Position numbers and translations under genes: made by a program
Assembly: GCF_008831285.2 (NCBI RefSeq)
Contig: NC_045146.1
Span: forward strand, 20,413,289 to 20,477,288
DNA length: 64,000 bases
Direction of reading: 5' to 3'
From: Nymphaea colorata
Taxonomy: Eukaryota; Streptophyta; Magnoliopsida; Nymphaeales; Nymphaeaceae
The notes under the pieces: generated by a model
What the model was told of the DNA's origin: nothing
What the model saw: only the letters and a program-made list of their open reading frames with translations
Databases searched by the model: none
Part shown: piece after piece, positions 956 through 49,859 of the stretch
How positions within the stretch are numbered: the stretch's first letter is position 1
How the letters are laid out: each line of letters starts with the position of its first letter

Positions 956-1202
956 ATCTACCTTTAGTAACTAGCTAGGATAAGGCAGAGGAGTGTGGTA
1001 CATGCATGTGCGGACCATAAAAATAATATAGGAGTCATTTAGTTGGGAAAGCATATCATACTAGAGAGGGTAAGATGGTGATGAGTTGTAGGAAGATCGA
1101 TTGTGCATGTATCATAACAACCCTGCCCACTCGGACAATGGGCTTCGGCTGGTAGCTGGTGGATTCCAACCGACCTCCTAACAGCTTTGGTTTCAACCCT
1201 AA
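956..1202. other. Old repeat sequence flanking the inserted element
   Basis: No gene seen. Motifs at 1001-1016 (CATGCATGTGCGGACC) and 1110-1130 (CATAACAACCCTGCCCAC) reappear in the same order, in diverged form, on the far side of the 1203-3685 element (about 3809-3875). The element may therefore have landed in or between copies of an older repeat. Confidence 0.3.
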
Positions 1203-1222
1203 GGGCCCGTTTGATGGGCGGG
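1203..1222 (+). repeat. Left terminal inverted repeat
   Basis: This 20-bp sequence is perfectly inverted relative to 3666-3685. The TAA just outside it is repeated outside the right end. Confidence 0.8.
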
Positions 1223-1328
1223 GTAAATTGAGAGGAACGGTTGAAAAATGTACGGGCGGATGAAATTTCACCCGCCTGACTGAAAACGTAATAAACATGG
1301 TGAAAGTTCACTCGTTTGACGTAAATGG

Positions 1329-1405
1329 GAGCGGGTGAAACTTCAACCGCTCGAAAGTCCGAGCTCGCAGCTCGGACTTTCGACCGGGTGAAGTTTCACC
1401 CGCTC
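1329..1405. repeat. Long inverted repeat (37-bp arms, 3-bp loop)
   Basis: The arms at 1329-1365 and 1369-1405 are complementary with only two mismatches across 37 positions and enclose the loop CGC. The outer part of each arm is GAGCGGGTGAAACTTC. The right arm runs into a direct repeat, CCCGCTCGACATGTTTGC, at 1399-1416 and again at 1435-1452. Transcripts crossing this site could fold into a strong stem. Confidence 0.75.
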
Positions 1406-2175
1406 GACATGTTTGCCTTTTCACCCCAATTCCTCCCGCTCGACATGTTTGCTTCTTCACCCTTCTTCCTCCCTCCGCTGCTCCTCCTCCCTCGCCGTCG
1501 CCTTCTCACCGTCGCACCAGAGGCGTCTGCTGGTTCCCTTTCTCTCTTGCTCGCAGCTCCGCTCCTTCGCTGGTTCGCCAACGCCATAGTCGCCGCTCTC
1601 AAGTAACGATTTCTCCTTTTTTCTTGCTCTGTCCCTTTCAGAAACACCCAAATCTATTTGTTCTCTGTTTTTACACATTGCTGTCGTTGTCTCTCTTTCT
1701 CTCTCGTTGTTGCTTCTATTGCTCTCGTTGCATGTAGATTCCATAGTTTATAGAGAGAAGGAAGGGGACGGTAGGTTGAGCTACGTGGGAGAAATCTGTC
1801 TATCTCTCTCTCTCTCTCTTTCTCTGTTGTTGAGGTCCAGATTTCTTAGACGTTTCGTGTTTTGCTTATTAGTTCAAGATTTAGTTCTTCGCTGACCTTT
1901 ATCTACAGTCGGGGATTCGAAGAATTTTCTGTTTAGTCCGTGTTTTTTTTGGATCTCCAGTATAGTAATTGTCTGGATTTCCTGAAGAGTTGCTGATTGC
2001 TTTCTTTGGTGCTTCTTTAGGTGCGATGTCCGCCTCTGCTTCGATTTTTTTTCTCCCGCTTCTTGCCCTAAGTTCTTCTAGATTTGGGCATGTCATTTGC
2101 TGAGGAGTCTCTGCGTCCCTCTTTGCCGGCTTGATGTTTTGTTCTGCATAAACATGAAATCTTGAGGAGAAAAAC

Positions 2176-3010
2176 TTGATTTGGGCGTTTCATTTGCTGC
2201 CCTCTGTTACTGCCCTCTCCACCGCCAGTTGCTCCTTATGCCAAACAGTTGCATATGTGCCCCTTGTACATATACTAGAGGACAAAATCAAGCATCAACA
2301 AGGTAAACTAGTTGAAGCAAATAGACGTGCTAATGCTTCATTTGTTTTTGCTGGTTGGCTACTTAGTATGAATGTCTTACAGCAGAAGAATAAAGAAGGG
2401 GCACATATGCACAAACCTATGATGGACACCTTACATGAAAGCATTTCGAAGTGGAACCAGAACAGTGAACTTTCTGAAGCAGTTTTATATATTCAAAGCA
2501 TGCAAAGACATACGGAGAACCTGGAGAAGGACGTGGAGGATATCTCATTCTTTTGCTTGTCTGTTTACATGAATTCTCAGTGTGATTGATCTCAGGGAAC
2601 ATGCAAATTGGTTATACACATCATTCCTGATACATATTGATCAATGATTTTTTTATTGTTGTTTTACTTTCCTTTTTTTGAGTCAGACCATGTACCTTGC
2701 TTTGTTATTGTCCTCATTCCTTCTAAAATGCTTGTTACATTACAACTGCCAATTCTTGAGTCAGGCCATGCTGCATCCTTAGGCCATGCTGCATCCTTCG
2801 CAGTGCAGCTGAAAGAAGCAATGAGGCCCAATCTCTACTCATGAAATTTGGGGAAGCACAAGAAACCATGAAATAGGCAGATGATGTGCTCAATGCATTG
2901 CTAGATGCCTATAAAGCTGCTAAGCATGAGACGGTAAGGTGGAAGAAACTTGGGGAAGATTTGATGGTGGAGAAGGCTGCCCTCTTTGCCGGCTTGATGT
3001 TTTGTTCTGA
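2176..3010 (+). pseudogene. Captured, broken host gene fragments (coiled-coil-like)
   Basis: Short plus-strand frames lie inside the transposon. One (roughly 2270-2570) has charged, helix-prone residues including ILEDKIKHQQGKL, EANRRANAS and MQRHTENLEKDVED. A second (about 2886-3000) reads LNALLDAYKAAKHE, then RWKKLGEDLMVEK. The frames are interrupted by stops, and stretches such as 2590-2760 look like intron or degenerate sequence. The second frame faintly recalls the coiled-coil tail of plant kinesin-12 proteins, but this is from memory and weak. The preceding CT-rich stretch (1470-1900) resembles a plant 5' leader, so the transposon may have picked up a leader plus several exons. It is also possible that these are chance frames. 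Confidence 0.35.
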
Positions 3011-3460
3011 AGCTAACGATTCACTTTCATTGTTTGAAACAGTGTATATGCATTCTGTTCTGGTTTCATGGCCGACGATATGCTTTTATTTGGTAGTATT
3101 GTATACAATGAAATGAAGTGATAATTTATTGGTAAACATATGTTGGTAGTATCTTACTGAACCTTGGGTTTTATGAATGCATCAAGTTCTGAATCACTCT
3201 ATATTCAGTTAAGGTTTTTGTTGATTATGCGTTCGTTCTAGATGTGTTTAACTAAATTAATGGTGCGATCCATGAGATGGAAGAGAGGCTTTTTGAGGAA
3301 CCTTGATGTATTGGTCTTGAATGGATTCTGAACTATGAACTATCGATATGGTTTGATCTTGATTTCTTGAATGCATAGACAAGAAAGAGCAACCTTTTGA
3401 TGCCTTCCTTTGTCATCTCCCAAGTCAGATTTGGAGAGGAGAATACACAAAAAAACAACA

Positions 3461-3586
3461 TTTACCATATTAAATTCTTTCTGTGCATCAAACAAGGTTA
3501 AATTTACCATGTTAAATTTTTCATGTGCATCAAACATGGTTAAATTTACCACGGTAAATTCTTTCCGCCCATCAAACAGGGCCTCA
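3461..3586 (+). repeat. Three tandem 42-bp units resembling the terminal repeat
   Basis: Units begin at 3461, 3503 and 3545, each starting TTTACC and containing CATCAAAC near the end. A related unit beginning at 3647 forms the actual right end of the element, where the same CATCAAAC lies inside the TIR. The period is exactly 42 bp, with scattered substitutions between copies. Confidence 0.75.
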
Positions 3587-3665
3587 GATTGGAAGAGGGA
3601 GAAATTTCATTCTGTAAATTTTTCCAAAAAAATTTAGCATGGTAAATTTACCGCCTTAAATTTCA

Positions 3666-3685
3666 CCCGCCCATCAAACGGGCCC
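3666..3685 (-). repeat. Right terminal inverted repeat
   Basis: This is the reverse complement of 1203-1222 over all 20 positions. TAA follows directly at 3686-3688. Confidence 0.8.
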
Positions 3686-3688
3686 TAA

Positions 3689-5238: not shown

Positions 5239-5598
5239 TGATGTAAATGGATCGGATTTAAATTGGATATTTGATTAAACCACTTCAAAAAGAACTTGAT
5301 ATGTCAAGAAATTTGACATAACTATTAACTAGGATCAAACTTGGTTTTAATTTAAGAAATGACATCCAGCCAGATTTAGATTTAAATTAAATATCCACTT
5401 AGATTCCAATTCAGCTCTTGATAATCTGGTTGTGTATTTAAAAACCAAATTCAAAATTGAGTATGCAAATAAAAGTCGGTTTTGGATATAATATCGATTT
5501 TCTTCGTTCATTTCCGGATACTAAGATCGAATATATTAACATCCGATGAATTCGGATTTGGTAAGGGATACCTCCAATCCAAACTGTTGACATCCCTA
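5239..5598. mobile_element. hAT-like MITE, copy 1 of a dispersed family
   Basis: The right end GTTGACATCCCTA, read in reverse, gives TAGGGATGTCAAC, a common hAT-type terminus. The left end, TGATGTAAATGGATCGG, is a diverged version of the same. The interior consists of GGATCGGATTT, GGATATT and TTTAAGAAATGACATCC motifs shared with copies near 40.6-40.85 kb and 52283-52738. No coding sequence is present. Confidence 0.5.
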
Positions 5599-6171
5599 TT
5601 CTGAATGTTGGTTCTTAGTCATCCACCGACAGGAACAAGAATTAACAAACGGGGCCGGGAGATGGGCTGCGTTTGCATGGATGATAACGTGTTTGCCATC
5701 CATGAACAGTGAATCAAACGGTTCAAGCCTTACTGTATTTTCTTCCTAATAATCAAGAAAATCTCATTTTCTGGTCCGGTTTTCTCAGAAAAGGGAAAAT
5801 CATACTTTTATATATATATATATATTTTTTCCGAAGCCCTCCTTCTCTCGTACCAATTTTTTTAATGGCGTTTTATTGCATCTCCATATTTGAATATTTA
5901 ACTTACTTTTTGCCATCGCATCATCTGGACGTTTTCGTAAATAAGGGCACGCAGCGTGTGCCACGCTGGCTCAAATTCGAAACGGGACTCCTGAGTGGCT
6001 TTTACGTTATTTAAATGAAAAATAAGGCCCAAATTGGAGATTGCTGCTGAAATTTGAAAACTCATTCGCCTCCCGCTCCTTCGACAAAAGAGACACTCTC
6101 CTCAGCCCCCTTCATCCCTTTCTTCTCCCAAGAATCCTCATCTCCTCTCTCTCTCTCTCTCTCCCTGTGCA
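5599..6171 (+). promoter_or_regulatory. Upstream region and leader of the kinesin-5 gene
   Basis: AACGG cores at 5648-5652 and 5717-5721 (the second in the context CAAACGGTTCA) resemble the MSA element bound by MYB3R factors in G2/M-phase plant genes, although flanking positions do not fully match. A CT-rich tract immediately precedes the ATG at 6172 and is typical of a plant leader. The transcription start cannot be fixed by eye. Confidence 0.3.
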
Positions 6172-9100
6172 ATGGCTGGCCGCCACGAGAAGGAGAAGGG
6201 AGTAAACGTCCAGGTCCTCCTCCGCTGCAGGTATGGAAATGGCGTCCATCTATCTTTCCTCCTCAAATCAGAGATCGATTTCTTTGCTTCGCCTCCTGAT
6301 TTTCTTTCTTCCCTTCTCAAATTTCAGGCCATTCAATGAAGATGAGTTGAGAAGCAATGCCCCTCAGGTCATCACTTGCAATGAGTACCAGCGCGAGGTC
6401 GCCGTCTCTCAGAACATCGCCGGCAAGCAGTTCGATCGGGTCTTTACATTCGACAAGGTCTACTTCCCCTTCTTTAAGCTTTTCCCACACTTTTCCATTA
6501 GATAGATCTGTCTGATTTAGTTTCTGAATTTGGGAGCATCCGATTACCCTGCTTCAATTGCATTCTTGCGTAATGGTTCAAAATGTCGCCATCAAGTGTC
6601 TCCCTTGTGTTCTTTCGCCCCGTTGATTTTCTATTTGTTGATTCCTAAGATTATGTCAATAGATGACGGATGTGAAGCAACGAGGATATAGTTCTTACCG
6701 GGGTCGAACTTTCAAAGATTCGATTTGAAGAGACGATCTAGTGAAGGCCTGTTATTAGTCGGGTGGGGTTTGCTGCAATCACCTTTAATTTTTGTCTCCG
6801 TGTCATGGCACAGGATTTTTTAGGAGATTATTTCCTCCAATGTGCGATCTATAGTTGCACGAGATTTGTCAAAGCGATCTGCTCTGAATAATTTCCTATT
6901 TCTCGAGCCTTTCCTGGCCATTGTGATGGTAATTTTGGTTCAGAAGCGGGGATTATCTGATAAAGGTTGCTGCTCCTGCATTGTTAACCTTTGTTCGATG
7001 GAGATGGAAGCACATACATAAAAATAGAGATATCTCTATTCCGGTATATCAATAGGAATTGCTCCACGACGCACCCGTATATTTTTCTACTGGGGAGGTC
7101 TAGAAAAAAACATGATTGTTTGTCTCCTACTGGTTAGGTATGAGTAGACTAGATCATAATCTCGGAACCCTGTTTACGTTTGTTTATGCTGTAGGTTTTT
7201 GGTCCTGGTGCTCAGCAAAAGGACTTGTATGATCAAGCAGTTGTGCCTATAGTGAATGAAGTTCTGGAGGGATTCAACTGCACAATATTTGCGTATGGTC
7301 AGACGGGAACCGGAAAGACTTACACGATGGAAGGGGATAGCAAAAAATCAAAGGTGATCTTTTTCTGAAAGGCCGCACTGTCTTCATTGATCCTCATTTT
7401 CATCTTTTCTTTTTGGTTACCTTGATTGAATCATTGAAAGACGATTGCATGGTTGTTTCCTGTTCGTGTTCAATTTAGCATCTCGACTTTCTTTTTTTCT
7501 GGGATTTCAGTGTGGCGAGTTGCCTTTGGATGCTGGTGTCATCCCTAGAGCTGTGAAGCAGATATTTGACACCCTGGAGAGTCAAAGAGCTGAATATAGT
7601 GTGAAGGTCACATTTCTGGAGCTGTATAATGAAGAAATTACCGACTTGCTGGCTCCAGAGGAACTGTCAAAGGTTACATTGGAGGAGAAGCAGAAGAAGC
7701 CATTGCTCCTTATGGAAGATGGGAAGGGCGGTGTCCTTGTCAGAGGCCTTGAGGAAGAAATTGTAACGAGTGCCAGTGAAATATTTTCCTTGTTGGAAAG
7801 GGGGTCTGCCAAGCGGCGAACTGCTGAAACACTACTGAACAAACAGTCTAGGTTTGCATATTTGATTTCTTTAGTTCTTTTTCCTTAAAGATGATTTACT
7901 TAAGCTTTCTTAATGGTCTTCAAATGCAATTTTCCCAGTCGTTCACATTCCCTATTTTCTATTACCATTCACATCAAAGAAGCAACTCCAGAGGGCGAGG
8001 AACTTATTAAATGTGGGAAATTGAATTTGGTTGACCTTGCTGGTTCTGAGAATATATCGAGATCTGGTGCTAGGGAGGTAAGCCTATGACTCCGGCAGCA
8101 TTTAAGGAATGAAGTAATTTTTCTGGAATTTGTGTCGCCTGTGTGCTTCTGATTATTGCCAGGAAGTGTGTGTTGTTTTGTAAAGTTTAAATTTATAGAC
8201 CATTTGAACTAGCTGGTTTTTCAATTTTCAAATCAGGGACGTGCAAGAGAAGCTGGAGAAATCAACAAAAGCCTACTTACACTTGGCCGAGTTATCACTG
8301 CTTTGGTTGAGCATCTTGGTCACGTCCCATATAGGTGGGTGGGTGCATTTGCGTCTAATGTGTGCATCTATTTGAAGTTTCTTCACTGATTGGTTAATAT
8401 TGAAAATTTGAAACTGTCAGGGATAGCAAACTTACCAGGCTATTGCGTGATTCTTTGGGTGGACGGACTAAAACTTGTATCATTGCTACGGTGTCACCAT
8501 CTGTTCATTGTTTAGAGGAGACACTAAGTACTCTGGACTATGCTCACAGGGCCAAAAATATCAAAAATAGGCCAGAGGTTCGGATAGATACTTTTTTTGT
8601 AAACTGCTATTGCATTTATAAATTGTTGCTAGTTGGTACTTGGATGTTTTTTTTAAATCCTGAAAGCTTTAGTGACTTTATGTTGTTTAGTTGATTCTAT
8701 TTCTGGATGGCCGGATTGGTTTTCTTTTTTCCACTATTTTTTTGGGGGTTGCTGAGGTTACTTGAAGTATCTGATGCCAATGAACATTTTCCAATACAGG
8801 AACCAAACACTGGTTCTTGGAATCCAATCCTTTATAAAATCCATCCTTAGTCCTTGCCAACTATAATGTTCTTTTGGTTGGTCTCCTGTTCTTCTATACA
8901 AACTCAGTTTTCTTTGAGAAGGAAGCCTTATTGCATGGACTACTGCACCCTAATTCGTACTGGCCGGGTTTTCCTTTCCAGTTGAGTATTGAGATGATGT
9001 GATTGCTGTCCTTCCTTGTGTACTCATACGATCCCAGGGAACCTCTGCAGCTATGTGGAACAAGTGGCTGATATTATTCTTGTTCAATTGGATGTGGACT

Positions 9101-20070: not shown

Positions 20071-20218
20071 GTGTTTGTGGGGAATGTTGTCTGGCTCGAG
20101 GCCGGTCTCACGTGTATGCGAAGACAACCGGTTTCCATCTCTTCTCTTTTTCTCTGGTACCGGTGTTGTTTTCTCGTGTGGCCGTTCTCGGACCAGGCTT
20201 CATTCCCCCCAAATCCTA
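20071..20218 (+). ncRNA. MIR166: MIR166 precursor (pre-miR166)
   Basis: The 3' arm holds the mature miRNA at 20188-20208, beginning TCGGACCAGG and ending TTCATTCCCC, identical over 21 nt to the canonical miR166 as recalled. The 5' arm holds the star strand at 20081-20101, beginning GGAATGTTGT and ending GGCTCGAGG, the usual miR166* form. The arms pair as expected, and the stem extends inward: GAAGACAACCGG (20120-20131) opposes CCGGTGTTGTTTTC (20160-20173). miR166 guides cleavage of HD-ZIP III transcription factor mRNAs, setting adaxial/abaxial polarity, meristem and vascular patterning. The primary transcript probably begins upstream in the CT-rich region near 19.7-19.9 kb and may extend well downstream. 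Precursor ends are approximate. Confidence 0.95.
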
Positions 20219-30976: not shown

Positions 30977-32716
30977 CTAACAAACTAGGTCGCATTCAAA
31001 ATGGCTCAACTCGAAGGAGTCGATCGCCTTCTGGCTCAATCCGGGGCAGTTCCTTAGGTTCAACGTCGTCAGCCACAACATTTTGTGGAGATGAGCCAAG
31101 TCTGCATCCGTAATAGTGCCGCCTGAAACGTCTAAATCCCTTAACTCCGTGCAGTAGAAGGCAATCACCCGCAGACAATGGCCACTCAGCCTCGGGCAGT
31201 CACCAAGGCTTAGTGACTTCAGCTGTGGACCGAAGCAACGACATATCTCAGAAATGGAAGAATCAGTTAAGCCTGTACAGCCATTTAAGGTCACCCTCTC
31301 AATGGGGCGGACTTCCAGACCGGAGCCCATCATCAGTAGGCTGGCAAGACCTCGATCCGATACTTGCTCCAGGCCAATGAGCTCCACTTCGCGCAGGTTT
31401 GAGCAAACACTTCCTATCCAATCCAGGAAAGCGTCCCCTAGCAAAACGCAGCATCCCACCATTAGGGTTTCCAGTTTATTGCAGGAAGGTGGTGAGTTTA
31501 AACCTGCCCATGATCTGCTCGTCTCTACAATGGCGTTGCATCTTGTCAGCGAGAGGCTCTTGAGGTTTTTGGCATACCCAGAAAGGAACTCCACCAACCC
31601 ACTGAAAGAAACCCGGTGGCACGCCTCCAGAGCAAACTTCTCCAATGCACCTACCCCTCGACCTATTGCCACAAGACCCTCATCGTTCAATGCCCAGCTC
31701 CCGCTAATGGATACGCTCTTCAGATTGGAGCACTCCATTCCGACGGGCCTAAACCTGGCCAAGCTCCGCAAGTCAGGAGAGTCGAGGAAAGCAACATCTT
31801 TGTTCTCCACGTCGGCGCCGCTGGCATTCTGGGTTGCAACGTCGAAGGAGTAACCTTCGAGAGAGAGCGAGGCGAGGGCCCTGCAGTGCCTCACTAAGGC
31901 CAGCACAGCGCGAAGATTCGCGCGAAGCTGTGCGAGCTTGAGCCTCTTGAGATTCGGTAGTCCTGCGAGAATCGCGAACACGCCTTCGTCGCCGACGAGC
32001 CGGCAGCCCTTCACGGAGATGGAATGGAGGGTGGGAGTGTAGGCCCCGAAAGCCTTGAGGCTGCTGTTCCCGATGTTTCTGCAGGACTCGACGCTTAGTG
32101 TGGTCAGCTTCCTCAGCCCTCTCGCCACCGCCACCATCCCCTCGTCCGTGATCAAGGGGCACTCGCACAGATCGAGTTTCTCCAAGAGAGCACAACCTCT
32201 GGACACGCAGACGAGCCCCCTGTTGGTTACGTAGAGACAACCCCAGAGGGCGAGCGACTTGAGGCAAGGGAAGCCGGAACCGACGATATCGAGGCCACAA
32301 TCGGTCACCCCATGCGGCACTCGAGTCGAGTACGACGCCGCCTTCCGGACAAGGAAATCCCCCCTGATGCTCAGATCGCCGACGATCCCCTTCGCCCACT
32401 TGCAGACGGCCATGGCGGCCAGCCTCGTGTCCATGGCATGGCTCCCCTCTAAGCACCTCTTCATTCGGTCTCCCGCGCCGGACTGGTTGGCCGACTCCTT
32501 CACCTTGAAATCCGATATCTTCATGTGAGCTTGCAGTAGCAGAAACTTCTTGCACACGGCGGCACACAGCCATCGATCCGTAGGGTCGGGGTTGTAGCTG
32601 AATATCTCCGCGATGCACTCGTCCGGCAGACGATTAAATGGGTTCTCCCTGTCGTTACCTTCTCTCGGCAAACCCCTAGTCTTCTTCCTCCTCCTAACTT
32701 CTGCTGCCACCACCAT
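30977..32716 (-). CDS. EBF1/EBF2-like F-box / leucine-rich-repeat protein, intronless
   Basis: This is the substrate receptor of an SCF ubiquitin ligase; EBF1 and EBF2 target EIN3/EIL factors in ethylene signalling. The protein is 579 residues. An F-box spans about 26-66 (NPFNRLPDECIAEIFS, then RWLCAAVCKKF), followed by the DTRLAAMAV stretch and LSIRG motif seen in EBF proteins, then roughly 14-16 cysteine-containing LRRs (GLVCVSRGCALLEKLDLCEC, ITDEGMVAVA, VGDEGV). The C terminus, HFECDLVC, parallels the EBF ending. The ATG at 32714-32716 is chosen because a TATA-like CTATATAG lies only 60 nt upstream; the longer open frame to 32878 crosses it. It is shorter than typical EBFs, lacks their N-terminal region, has no intron and is quite diverged, so it may be a paralogue with another target. 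The 5' half is GC-rich. Confidence 0.85.
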   Translation of the reverse strand: MVVAAEVRRRKKTRGLPREGNDRENPFNRLPDECIAEIFSYNPDPTDRWLCAAVCKKFLLLQAHMKISDFKVKESANQSGAGDRMKRCLEGSHAMDTRLAAMAVCKWAKGIVGDLSIRGDFLVRKAASYSTRVPHGVTDCGLDIVGSGFPCLKSLALWGCLYVTNRGLVCVSRGCALLEKLDLCECPLITDEGMVAVARGLRKLTTLSVESCRNIGNSSLKAFGAYTPTLHSISVKGCRLVGDEGVFAILAGLPNLKRLKLAQLRANLRAVLALVRHCRALASLSLEGYSFDVATQNASGADVENKDVAFLDSPDLRSLARFRPVGMECSNLKSVSISGSWALNDEGLVAIGRGVGALEKFALEACHRVSFSGLVEFLSGYAKNLKSLSLTRCNAIVETSRSWAGLNSPPSCNKLETLMVGCCVLLGDAFLDWIGSVCSNLREVELIGLEQVSDRGLASLLMMGSGLEVRPIERVTLNGCTGLTDSSISEICRCFGPQLKSLSLGDCPRLSGHCLRVIAFYCTELRDLDVSGGTITDADLAHLHKMLWLTTLNLRNCPGLSQKAIDSFELSHFECDLVC

Positions 32717-32729
32717 TTCATAGACAAAG

Positions 32730-32747
32730 AGAGAGAGAGAGAGAGAA
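32730..32747. repeat. (GA)n tract in the F-box gene leader
   Basis: Read on the minus strand this is a CT run just before the ATG, typical of plant leaders. Confidence 0.7.
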
Positions 32748-32775
32748 TCGAGGTGTAGGGAGGCAGTAGATGTGG

Positions 32776-32783
32776 CTATATAG
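32776..32783 (-). promoter_or_regulatory. TATA box of the F-box/LRR gene
   Basis: CTATATAG, in the minus-strand context CCCTATATAGCC, is about 60 nt before the ATG. A start near 32745-32750 would give a short CT-rich leader. It supports the 32716 start over the longer open frame. Confidence 0.5.
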
Positions 32784-32790
32784 GGAAAAG

Positions 32791-35700
32791 GAATGGTGCA
32801 GGATTCATTATGAGCCAGGTGTGTGAGGGAGACTCCCGGGAGGGAAAAAAAGAAAAAAGAAAAAAGAAGAGAGAACAAAGACGGGGCTGGGAAGGGGGAT
32901 TATAATTTCTGAAGATTTCAGAGAAACGTGGGGATCAGAACTGGCAAAAAAGCTAAACGTGGATGGTCATGAGCGCACGGTTTTCAAATTCATACCCCAT
33001 CTTTGGCACATGCATTGAGTGCTCTCAGTAGCCTTGTCTTTTTGTTATCGTCTTTCCTTTTTCCTCTACCACAAGGTGAAAAAAATACAAGCATGATGAG
33101 ATTATTCATCTCGCCCTGCGATCCATACAACTAACAAAGGATGGGCCTTCAATGTTCCGTTCCGGTTGCTTCCTGCTCTTGAATTCTGTCCAAATGAACA
33201 AGTACTTCGCCCCTTAACAAACACTTTTGACACATTAGAGTCCACAGGTCCCACTTGTTAGATGGCATTTCGGACGTCCTTTCGGCGCATTCCCGGCTCC
33301 ACTCATCACGTTCTCCAAACTCAAAGTCAAGCGATCTCGGTCCACCCTCATCCTGACAACCCATCAGTCTCCTTCTCAAAGTTTTCAATCCATGCATCAC
33401 GGGCCAAAAGTCTGTTATTTATTGCGAGTCCGAATAAAGAGCTTGCTGAGCGGCTGACGCAGTGTTATCCACACCAGCAGACGAACTCTTCACATATATA
33501 GCGAACACAAAAGCAGGGTCTAAACGCCTATCTACTCAAGCCTGCTCACAATTTATACCTATCAATGCTTGACAGCACTCGGTTTTAACTTAACGTGGCC
33601 TCGCCTGAGCTCCGTTCACGTCGCTCATGAAAAATGCGGGCGTCGAGTTCAGATCACACAGAGGATCAGCTGGCGCACTGATTCTGTGGGACGACCTAAC
33701 TAGCTTTCCATCTACCTGCTGTCGAGAACCATTTTCCGCTTGGCTATATGGTATCTGTAATCATCTCTACAACGAATTACTCTCCGGCAGCCCGGGTAGA
33801 TCCCCAAAACCGCGTGAATAGTGTCGGAAGGGACCGACCTGAGATGTTTGACCGAGACGATACAGCCCATCGGATTCTTCTTTTAGTTGTTATTTTAAAA
33901 GATTTTCCGGGCATGAGCCAACTTGAACAAGTGGATTTCATTATTCAAAGTGGTGTCGTCTCAAAAGAACCACTGGAAATGGCATTTCCTTCCCCCTTTC
34001 TTTTCGCAGATTGCAACTTGGAGGATTCCCTGTCGAGAATTATGGGAGGCTGGATAATAATGATCTATAGTAGGTAGATCTCGGAGAAAAAGAAATGGAA
34101 AAAGGAGAAAAGTATTGTGGGCATGAGAATTTCAAAACTAAGAGAAGGTTTAAGATAACAGAGATATCAACCAATCATTTGGGTCGGCAGATTTCATGGA
34201 GTTTCCAACAGTTTTCGTTCGTAGACAAGGTGCTTTTGATGAGTGAACCTGCGTTGGGCCAAGATTTAACGAAATGAGCACGGACTACAGTCGGTTTTTC
34301 TTCACACATAAATATATGTTTGGACCAATCTCGATACTTTCCAACTTCCAATGTCGTTTACGAAACATAAAACCGATTTGATGCATAAAATTCCAATTCT
34401 CATCCTTTTGAGATTAAAATGGTAATCTCTCTACAATGGAAAACAAAATATATAATTGGAAGGAGCGGAATTGTGTTTAATTGAACATCAAGCCGACACG
34501 GGGACCGGACTATATTTCTGTGTGTAGTCGGAAATTGGTCAGGAGAATTAAAACTTGATCAAGTTACATTTGGGCAATCTGCGTCTACCAAACTGGGTCT
34601 GGAGAGGATTGACTAGGCTTCTTCGCTTGAGCGGCACTGCGTTCCGGAGTAACGCTTCCGACTTCGCTTACTGCCTTTGATCGCATCGTCAGCATGTCAG
34701 CCGTCGCTCAAGATTCATGCAGCATAAGTACGACTACGGATACCAATGATCAGTACTCTCCTCTTCTTAATTCTGCCTACAAATTATTAATGTTGGACTT
34801 AACAGACTTGAACTAGTCGCTGCCTGGGTCAATCCACCGGTTTTTTTTTTTTCCTTTTCCTTTTGTTACATTATGCACTTGCCATAATTTTTTTTTGCCA
34901 ATAACAAATGCATTTCGCTGAAGAATTTAGGGTTCGCCAAACATCGAGATTCTTGCCATTTCGATTTTATTCCCCTCCCTCCGATAAGCCTAATGAACGG
35001 CAGCCATTGAAGATTCAAAACTGAACAACAGGAGAGAATGGGATTGATGACATTTCTTCTTCTCTTCCCTCCATTTTCGTCTTATTCCGAGCCGGAACGC
35101 CCTTACAGCCACAGGCATCCTTCATTCTTAAAATAATATTATATTTTGTTGTTGTATTCCCTTATCACTCTGCACATACACTCGATTTGTCACAAAAGAC
35201 AAAGCAGCATCCACGGCAAGGAAGTAAATGAGACTGACCGACTTCCGCGCATAAAGCTTCGATGCAGAGAGTCCTACAGTGGCACGCTGTTTGGCCGCGT
35301 GAAGGCCCCCGGCCAGAGCCCCAGCTACTCGATCAAGAACACCAATATTCTATCATCGCCTTTACGCCTTCCACCATCCCTCCTACATGCACTTGGCCCT
35401 TATGTGTGCTATTCTGCATTTATTGATAATTCTGCAACTTGGGAGACAAGCCAACTTTATTCGAGCTCTAGTTGGAAGAAAAGCATTTATTCAGTCCTCC
35501 TGTCGTCACATACTATTGATCCCTGTAAGAAAGATGAGTTTGGTTTAATTTCACCTTATTCTCGCTATCGAAATTAATAGCGTTTACTATTGTTATCATA
35601 TGAAGTCAAGGCCAGGGTGAAACGACTGGCCTGCGAAATGTTCTCCTCATCACGCTGAAATCAGAGCTTGAGATGGTGCACGCAGATTATTTGATGCGCC

Positions 35701-49308: not shown

Positions 49309-49386
49309 ATGCGAATCTATATTCTTGGAGATTATCAAATCTCAGACGCCATTTATCATGACTACCATCTTCAACTCCTTGAGTGA
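49309..49386 (+). CDS. Upstream ORF in the SAUR leader (25 codons)
   Basis: ATG at 49309 begins a short frame (MRIYILGDYQ...) ending TGA at 49384-49386. A second upstream ATG at 49358 opens another frame ending TAA at 49457-49459. Both stop before the SAUR start. They matter only if transcription starts upstream, as the TATA-like site suggests. Confidence 0.3.
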   Translation: MRIYILGDYQISDAIYHDYHLQLLE

Positions 49387-49526
49387 CTCTTGTTCCAACC
49401 TTTTCGTTCTACAGATCTCAGGTTTTCAGCCCTCGTTTATGTCCGTTCTTCTCCTTTAATAGGACCTCCTCCTTCTTCTTTTGTTCTAGTTGTGTGTTTG
49501 GTTTCGTTCTTCTTGCTTGTTGTTTG

Positions 49527-49859
49527 ATGGGTCGCGAGGGAAACATGACCGGGTTTCATCTTCATTTACCCCACCTCCACCACGGGAAGAAGAACGAGGC
49601 GCTGTATAAGGACATCCCCAAGGGATGCTTCGCCGTGCTGGTGGGTCAGGGGGAGGAGCAGCAGAGGTTCGTGGTGCCCATCATATATCTCAGTCACCCT
49701 CTGTTCATGCAACTCCTCAAGGAGGCGGAAGACGAGTACGGGTTTGATCAAAAGGGCACCATCACCATCCCTTGCCATGTAGCCGAGTTTCGCTACGTTC
49801 AGGGATTGATCGACAAGGAGAAGCAGCAGCCTCACCATGTCGGCTGTTTCAGAGCCTGA
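49527..49859 (+). CDS. SAUR32-like small auxin-up RNA protein
   Basis: Encodes 110 residues, usual for a SAUR, with no intron. SAUR proteins inhibit PP2C.D phosphatases, releasing plasma-membrane H+-ATPase activity and promoting cell expansion. The N terminus is His-rich (GFHLHLPHLHHGKK), then the SAUR domain (about 27-98): DIPKGCFAVLVGQGEEQQRF, VVPIIYLSHPLFMQLLKEAE, EYGFDQKGTITIPCHVAEF. This is closest, from memory, to Arabidopsis SAUR32, which has the same His-rich start and GQGEEQQRF. The ATG at 49527-49529 is the first in frame with the domain after two upstream short ORFs; the open frame above it is only leader. A (GA)n tract follows in the 3' UTR. Confidence 0.9.
   Translation: MGREGNMTGFHLHLPHLHHGKKNEALYKDIPKGCFAVLVGQGEEQQRFVVPIIYLSHPLFMQLLKEAEDEYGFDQKGTITIPCHVAEFRYVQGLIDKEKQQPHHVGCFRA

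Follow-up and report, generated by a model that had tools for sequence, protein, structure and literature searches.

Capture of host-gene DNA by PIF/Harbinger elements is already known. A Harbinger element with two host genes is in print, and the kind of shuffling is known as well. Pack-PIF and Pack-TYPE elements of maize and rice are non-autonomous PIF elements with mostly TTA or TAA duplications, gene fragments and multi-copy clusters, according to the available portions of the source (PMC8903248). Turmoil-1 of C. elegans belongs to the Harbinger superfamily and carries fragments of two host genes that are unrelated to each other; one of these genes contributed exons with an intron (PMC2572040, in excerpt). 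Pifvine-3 of grapevine is a PIF element with host exons and introns, some of which are common to several copies (PMC2528002, in excerpt). Rice Pack-MULEs contain captured and amplified gene fragments, too, and differ from the element studied here in superfamily. About a fifth of them are said to combine several loci (PMC12030055, available portion).

As to uptake, fusion of neighbouring insertions was proposed for Pack-CACTA elements and extended to PIF (PMC8903248, same portions). A 2026 review also describes this fusion and, in its available part, considers another, undiscovered uptake mechanism possible for unlinked gene pieces (PMC13317346).

Structure of the element

Positions 1203–3685 of the window (the whole stretch of 64,000 nucleotides that was analysed) form a complete element of 2483 bp, located at C9:20414491-20416973 of the genome searched (407.8 Mb, 783 contigs), evidently a plant genome by its gene content. 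The terminal inverted repeat (TIR) GGGCCCGTTTGATGGGCGGG at 1203–1222 matches 3666–3685 in inverse orientation at 20 of 20 positions, and TAA duplications (1200–1202 and 3686–3688) flank the element. When the window was scanned for perfect inverted 20-mer pairs 0.3–8 kb apart, the TIRs were the sole pair outside (CA/TG)n dinucleotide repeats, which yielded other pairs near 54.05, 60.9 and 61.3 kb. No transposase frame was recognised in a six-frame reading. The original prediction of a 2.48-kb element with perfect 20-bp TIRs, TAA duplications and no visible transposase was thus accurate.

Both a CT-rich leader and broken coiled-coil frames are present, and ~56% of the element is host-derived. 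Two peptide fragments of the window matched no Pfam family. Searched against PDB, the same fragments gave five Sec24A matches (E 1.1–1.3), which were taken as chance. The features are, in window coordinates:

1200..1202, no strand: target-site duplication, left (TAA)
1203..1222, plus strand: left terminal inverted repeat, 20 bp, perfect (repeat scan)
1203..1751, plus strand: the transposon's own 5' end and CT-rich leader, common to transposase-bearing elements (sequence comparison)
1329..1405, no strand: hairpin with 37-nt arms near the left end (27–29 of 30 paired in nine of 14 elements)
1747..2058, plus strand: captured DNA that, in an amino-acid-transporter gene (C3), lies directly upstream of the coding frame
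1747–1751: microhomology TTTAT, 5 bp, at the left edge of the transporter capture
2059..2254, plus strand: segment common to other non-autonomous family members, for which no source gene was found
2250..2265, plus strand: 16 bp at the left kinesin junction that recur inverted, without mismatch, at 2396–2411
2255..2540, plus strand: captured kinesin fragment a, exon-internal (C10)
2541..3039, plus strand: captured kinesin fragment b, intron end (open-frame reading) and start of the next exon
2980..3009, plus strand: private patch of 30 bp, identical to 2117–2146
3040..3334 (at least), plus strand: captured 3' region of an acyl-CoA-binding-protein gene (C1)
3395..3685, plus strand: 3' end belonging to the transposon itself, with subterminal repeats of 42 bp that resemble the TIR
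3666..3685, minus strand: right terminal inverted repeat
3686..3688, no strand: target-site duplication, right (TAA)

The left-end hairpin was present even where the rest of the left end had diverged to ~71%, and it was missing from L018, L019 and three other elements among the 14 compared. At the right end (3460–3687), a 42-bp repeat occurs four times, and every unit contains the terminal repeat in a state of greater or lesser decay. One inner TIR-like copy at 3568–3583 has two mismatches. Elsewhere in the window, a mir-166 precursor (20074–20213; Rfam RF00075, 76.8 bits), an F-box/leucine-rich-repeat frame (30980–32899) and an auxin-responsive-protein frame (49383–49856) were seen.

The family and its transposase-bearing members

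A DNA search with the element gave at least 63 matches, with the best 40 of 839 candidates scored. From fetched loci similar to the window element, 14 elements were defined in the same genome. Matching 3-bp duplications were found in 13 of them (12 TAA or TTA, one CTA); in the remaining one, the left end has been lost. L018 (5.25 kb) and L019 (5.24 kb) contain long open frames. Both are among the 13, but as their flanks are identical, they represent one insertion duplicated together with its surroundings.

One of the L018 frames matches DDE_Tnp_4 in Pfam (8e-18). A PDB search with a piece of the transposase gave no match at E 0.01. Autonomous PIF/Harbinger copies have a second gene, ORF1, for a Myb-like protein. 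At the ORF1 position, L018 has a frame of 197 codons, whose sole Pfam hit was PF24769 (0.039), below the cut-off. Downstream of the L018 transposase frame, an RNase H1 N-terminal domain was seen (5348–5695; Cauli_VI, 2.5e-13), possibly another captured host piece.

Searching with the transposase frame gave at least 150 matches (the best 150 of 397 candidates scored), and the top 32, query included, had at least 82% identity over at least 137 of 157 residues. The transposase-bearing set comprised 16 loci: L018 and L019, which also belong to the 14 elements, and fourteen fetched around transposase matches. With up to three mismatches allowed, both ends were located in nine of the 16, and one or both ends were not found in seven. 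The 3-bp flanks match in all nine (eight TTA or TAA, one CAA). A second subfamily consists of L020–L024. Its interior (980 bp, L021 3004–3983) was found in these five copies, 98–100% alike to the query over the matched parts, and in pieces at 14 other places (19 of 19 candidates scored).

Many relatives with these ends occur in the genome, and several of them (5.0–6.1 kb) encode a PIF/Harbinger-type DDE transposase. Hence, the window element is classed as a non-autonomous PIF/Harbinger element. Pack-MULEs have target duplications of ~9 bp and MULE transposase relatives. Membership in that group was rejected because of the 3-bp duplication and the DDE_Tnp_4 relatives. Lacking a transposase, with intact ends and a duplication and an interior that corresponds to host genes elsewhere in the genome, the window element belongs to the Pack-TYPE elements of the PIF superfamily. 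The kind is known, and this example of it is resolved unusually well.

Across the 16 transposase-bearing loci, only element bases 1–549 (79% identical to L018) and 2193–2483 were covered, and bases 550–2192 had no match (E 1e-4, same strand). The interior is hence not explained by an autonomous relative; such an explanation was one of the outcomes that, by the original prediction, would have spoken against capture. An ordinary deletion derivative, with decayed transposase or accessory-protein sequence as its interior, would agree with the likeness of the first 549 and last 291 bases to the transposase-bearing loci. However, none of the 16 is matched by bases 550–2192, the greater part of which corresponds to three host genes. 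This explanation is refuted for the host-derived stretches, and for the element as a whole it is scarcely credible.

The leader query gave at least 43 matches at 40 places (best 40 of 86 candidates scored). For at least 18 of the 40 places, a transposase or right-part place was among those listed within 6 kb. Seven of the 22 others were fetched: five have a family end (up to four mismatches), L051 contains inner family sequence only and L047 is a host gene without ends. The likeness to L018 had suggested that the whole CT-rich leader was transposon-own. This was rejected, as the leader search showed a host origin of the second half. The leader is composite, with the transposon's own sequence up to 1751 and host-derived sequence beyond. 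Of the host-like leader in the original prediction, 1747–2058 stands and 1203–1751 does not.

Host-gene sources and junctions

The original prediction had proposed gene-fragment capture by a PIF/Harbinger-type element, to be checked by a search for an intact parent gene and for copies with different interiors. Three host genes were found on three chromosomes (C3, C10 and C1), in addition to the transposase-bearing relatives, which confirms the capture. Copies with different interiors occur among the 14 elements, so one identical interior in all copies is not what is seen. The third host fragment (3040 to at least 3334) had been missed.

In the C1 gene (L026), a 186-codon frame matches ACBP (PF00887, 2.3e-8, above the cut-off). 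Elements C4a and C2a follow the gene colinearly for ~0.8 kb (90%), and the window element matches 295 bp of it (92%). Judging from the C7 sister, this capture may continue weakly to ~3361. Element bases 1838–2136, shared by many copies, had been considered transposon-own. This was rejected, as they match the acyl-CoA-binding gene.

In the parent gene on C10, probably a KIN-12 kinesin, there are long coiled-coil exons with open frames and a motor region, of which three frames were scanned and two matched PF00225. When the parent exon was used as a protein query, with all nine candidates scored, the hits were the open 670-codon exon on C10 itself, just four elements and a single remote match (26%). 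Kinesin sequence is absent from the other ten of the 14 elements. The four carriers lie at four places, two with a TAA duplication, one with CTA and one whose left end is lost, so the cargo-bearing element has moved. A few kb downstream of the window element, at 7430–8691, another kinesin motor gene, presumably kinesin-5-like, is represented by exons (PF00225, 4.8e-25 and 1.4e-18).

All four carriers join stretch a (exon-internal) to stretch b (intron end and start of the next exon), and 1348 bp of the parent are skipped. This skip starts in an exon and ends in an intron (open-frame reading) and is thus not the result of splicing. The 16 bp at the left edge recur in exact inverse form 130 bp deeper in the element, a length reached by none of 5000 shuffles; in an earlier run with the query cut short, the match was 11 bp and was reached by four of 2000 shuffles. 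The two arms match imperfectly in the parent, one of them having six extra and two fewer bases, a pattern that would be expected from copying templated by a hairpin. No microhomology was found at the middle and right kinesin junctions.

In all four carriers, the kinesin piece abuts the acyl-CoA-binding 3' region (element base 1838 in the window copy). As the two are joined directly, most of the earlier capture seems to have given way to the kinesin capture. At 2980–3009, a templated patch of the window copy, 22 bp replace 88 bp that the three sisters and the parent have kept. Two further features of this copy are an 18-bp tandem duplication, absent in the sisters, and, in the second exon piece, a stop.

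Compared with the parent, exon a shows 9–12 amino-acid-changing and two or three silent differences per copy, with one changing site at the junction edge. Exon b shows one to three changing and six or seven silent differences in three copies, and seven of each in the window copy, whose count is distorted by its patch. Exon a gives no reading of constraint, and the silent differences of exon b may be changes on the parent's side. Of the four copies, three contain a stop or a one-base insertion in the kinesin stretches. Most probably, the cargo has decayed and encodes no protein.

The C3 gene (L047) matches element bases 545–775 at 89% and 767–856 at 98%; its match to the C3 sister is fuller (94% and 97%). 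The region of similarity stops ~0.1 kb before a frame that hits Aa_trans (PF01490, 5.5e-20). TTTAT at the left edge is common to the element, the host gene and the composite. In a separate search with the transporter fragment (six of six candidates scored), the C3 gene was the only full host match; besides it, the fragment occurs in three elements, and two further matches are minor (136 bp at 83%; 35 bp).

The same sequence pairs would result if the transfer had run in the reverse direction, i.e. if the host stretches were remnants of transposon insertions in three genes. Yet the shared stretches include in-frame coding sequence of two parents (the kinesin coiled coil and, in C4a and C2a, the acyl-CoA-binding domain), and the frames continue past the shared part. 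Moreover, nothing close to the family end was found at the parent loci: the best match to its 16 bp had 4–5 mismatches in all five loci (5 in L026). The 16 transposase-bearing loci do not contain these stretches either. The in-frame argument does not extend to the non-coding transporter stretch, to which only the missing ends apply. Taken together, a reverse transfer is very improbable.

Order, mechanism and comparison with known elements

Nesting was compared in 12 non-autonomous elements, chosen as similar to the window element. The acyl-CoA-binding piece is present in 11, the kinesin piece in four and the transporter piece in three of them. Every kinesin carrier has the acyl-CoA-binding piece, and every transporter carrier has both. 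This nested sharing, and not the divergence values, suggests the order acyl-CoA-binding gene, kinesin, transporter. A clean age order was looked for in the divergence from the parents and not found. The kinesin part differs from its parent by 0.067 in the window copy and by 0.042–0.045 in the sisters (0.020–0.023 among the three sisters), and the acyl-CoA-binding part by 0.063–0.083 (eight copies). For the transporter part, the values by segment are 0.033 and 0.028 (C3 copy), 0.063 and 0.023 (window copy) and 0.099 and 0.058 (C7 copy).

According to the proposed course of events, the end of the acyl-CoA-binding-protein gene would have been acquired first. In one descendant lineage, two joined kinesin pieces would then have replaced most of this capture. 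Finally, the stretch upstream of the amino-acid-transporter gene would have been added along with a new left end from another subfamily. The transposases of the full-length relatives presumably move the element in trans. Judging from the scars, the kinesin capture may have occurred by DNA copying with template switching during break repair. Microhomology, templated filler and the skipped stretch would fit copying of this kind. The parent genes, the boundaries and the sharing among copies are seen directly in the sequences, and we are highly confident that the element is a non-autonomous Pack-TYPE PIF/Harbinger element with at least three successive acquisitions of host DNA in the order proposed.

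The transporter capture possibly arose by fusion of two neighbouring insertions. Its left end is L018-like, and its remainder continues as a C9-sister-like copy without the first 226 bp; as the two come from different subfamilies, fusion also fits this junction. It is conceivable, if doubtful, that all captures arose in this way, i.e. that neighbouring family insertions fused around host DNA, lost their inner ends and were re-mobilised as one. The kinesin piece argues against this: 1348 bp of the parent are left out of it, one of its edges is inverse-templated, the sequences on either side of it resemble elements C4a and C2a, and no inner TIR remnant was seen at its junctions. These features would also be compatible with a later deletion after fusion. 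For the kinesin piece, copying with template switching is preferred.

The host pieces are all in sense orientation and ordered like a gene (5' region, internal exon, 3' region). This arrangement was noticed after the fact and would occur by chance in one of 48 cases if orientation and order were random. That the three pieces are retained jointly as a stable chimeric transcript, a predicted one driven by the transposon leader, is improbable.

In the titles and abstract openings of the literature searched, no search being aimed at that alone, no three-gene PIF element was found. In cotton, MIR482/2118d is a further case of PIF/Harbinger capture and spread, with a microRNA gene instead of fragments of three protein genes (PMC12030055, available portion). 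Turmoil-1 keeps its transposase and has the gene pieces in long terminal repeats (PMC2572040, as excerpted), whereas the window element is from a plant, has no transposase and contains pieces of three genes inside. In Pifvine-3, host DNA forms a long additional 5' region in a family with ORF1 and transposase, as far as the excerpted source goes (PMC2528002); the window element has no transposase. For Pack-PIF cluster 18, the available portions of the source give one maize gene match and a second short region (PMC8903248), whereas for the window element three parents are identified and an order of capture is proposed. Hence, one genome offers a readable series of three PIF captures with parents, intermediates and junction scars, and the copies allow a capture-by-capture comparison of the two main uptake models.
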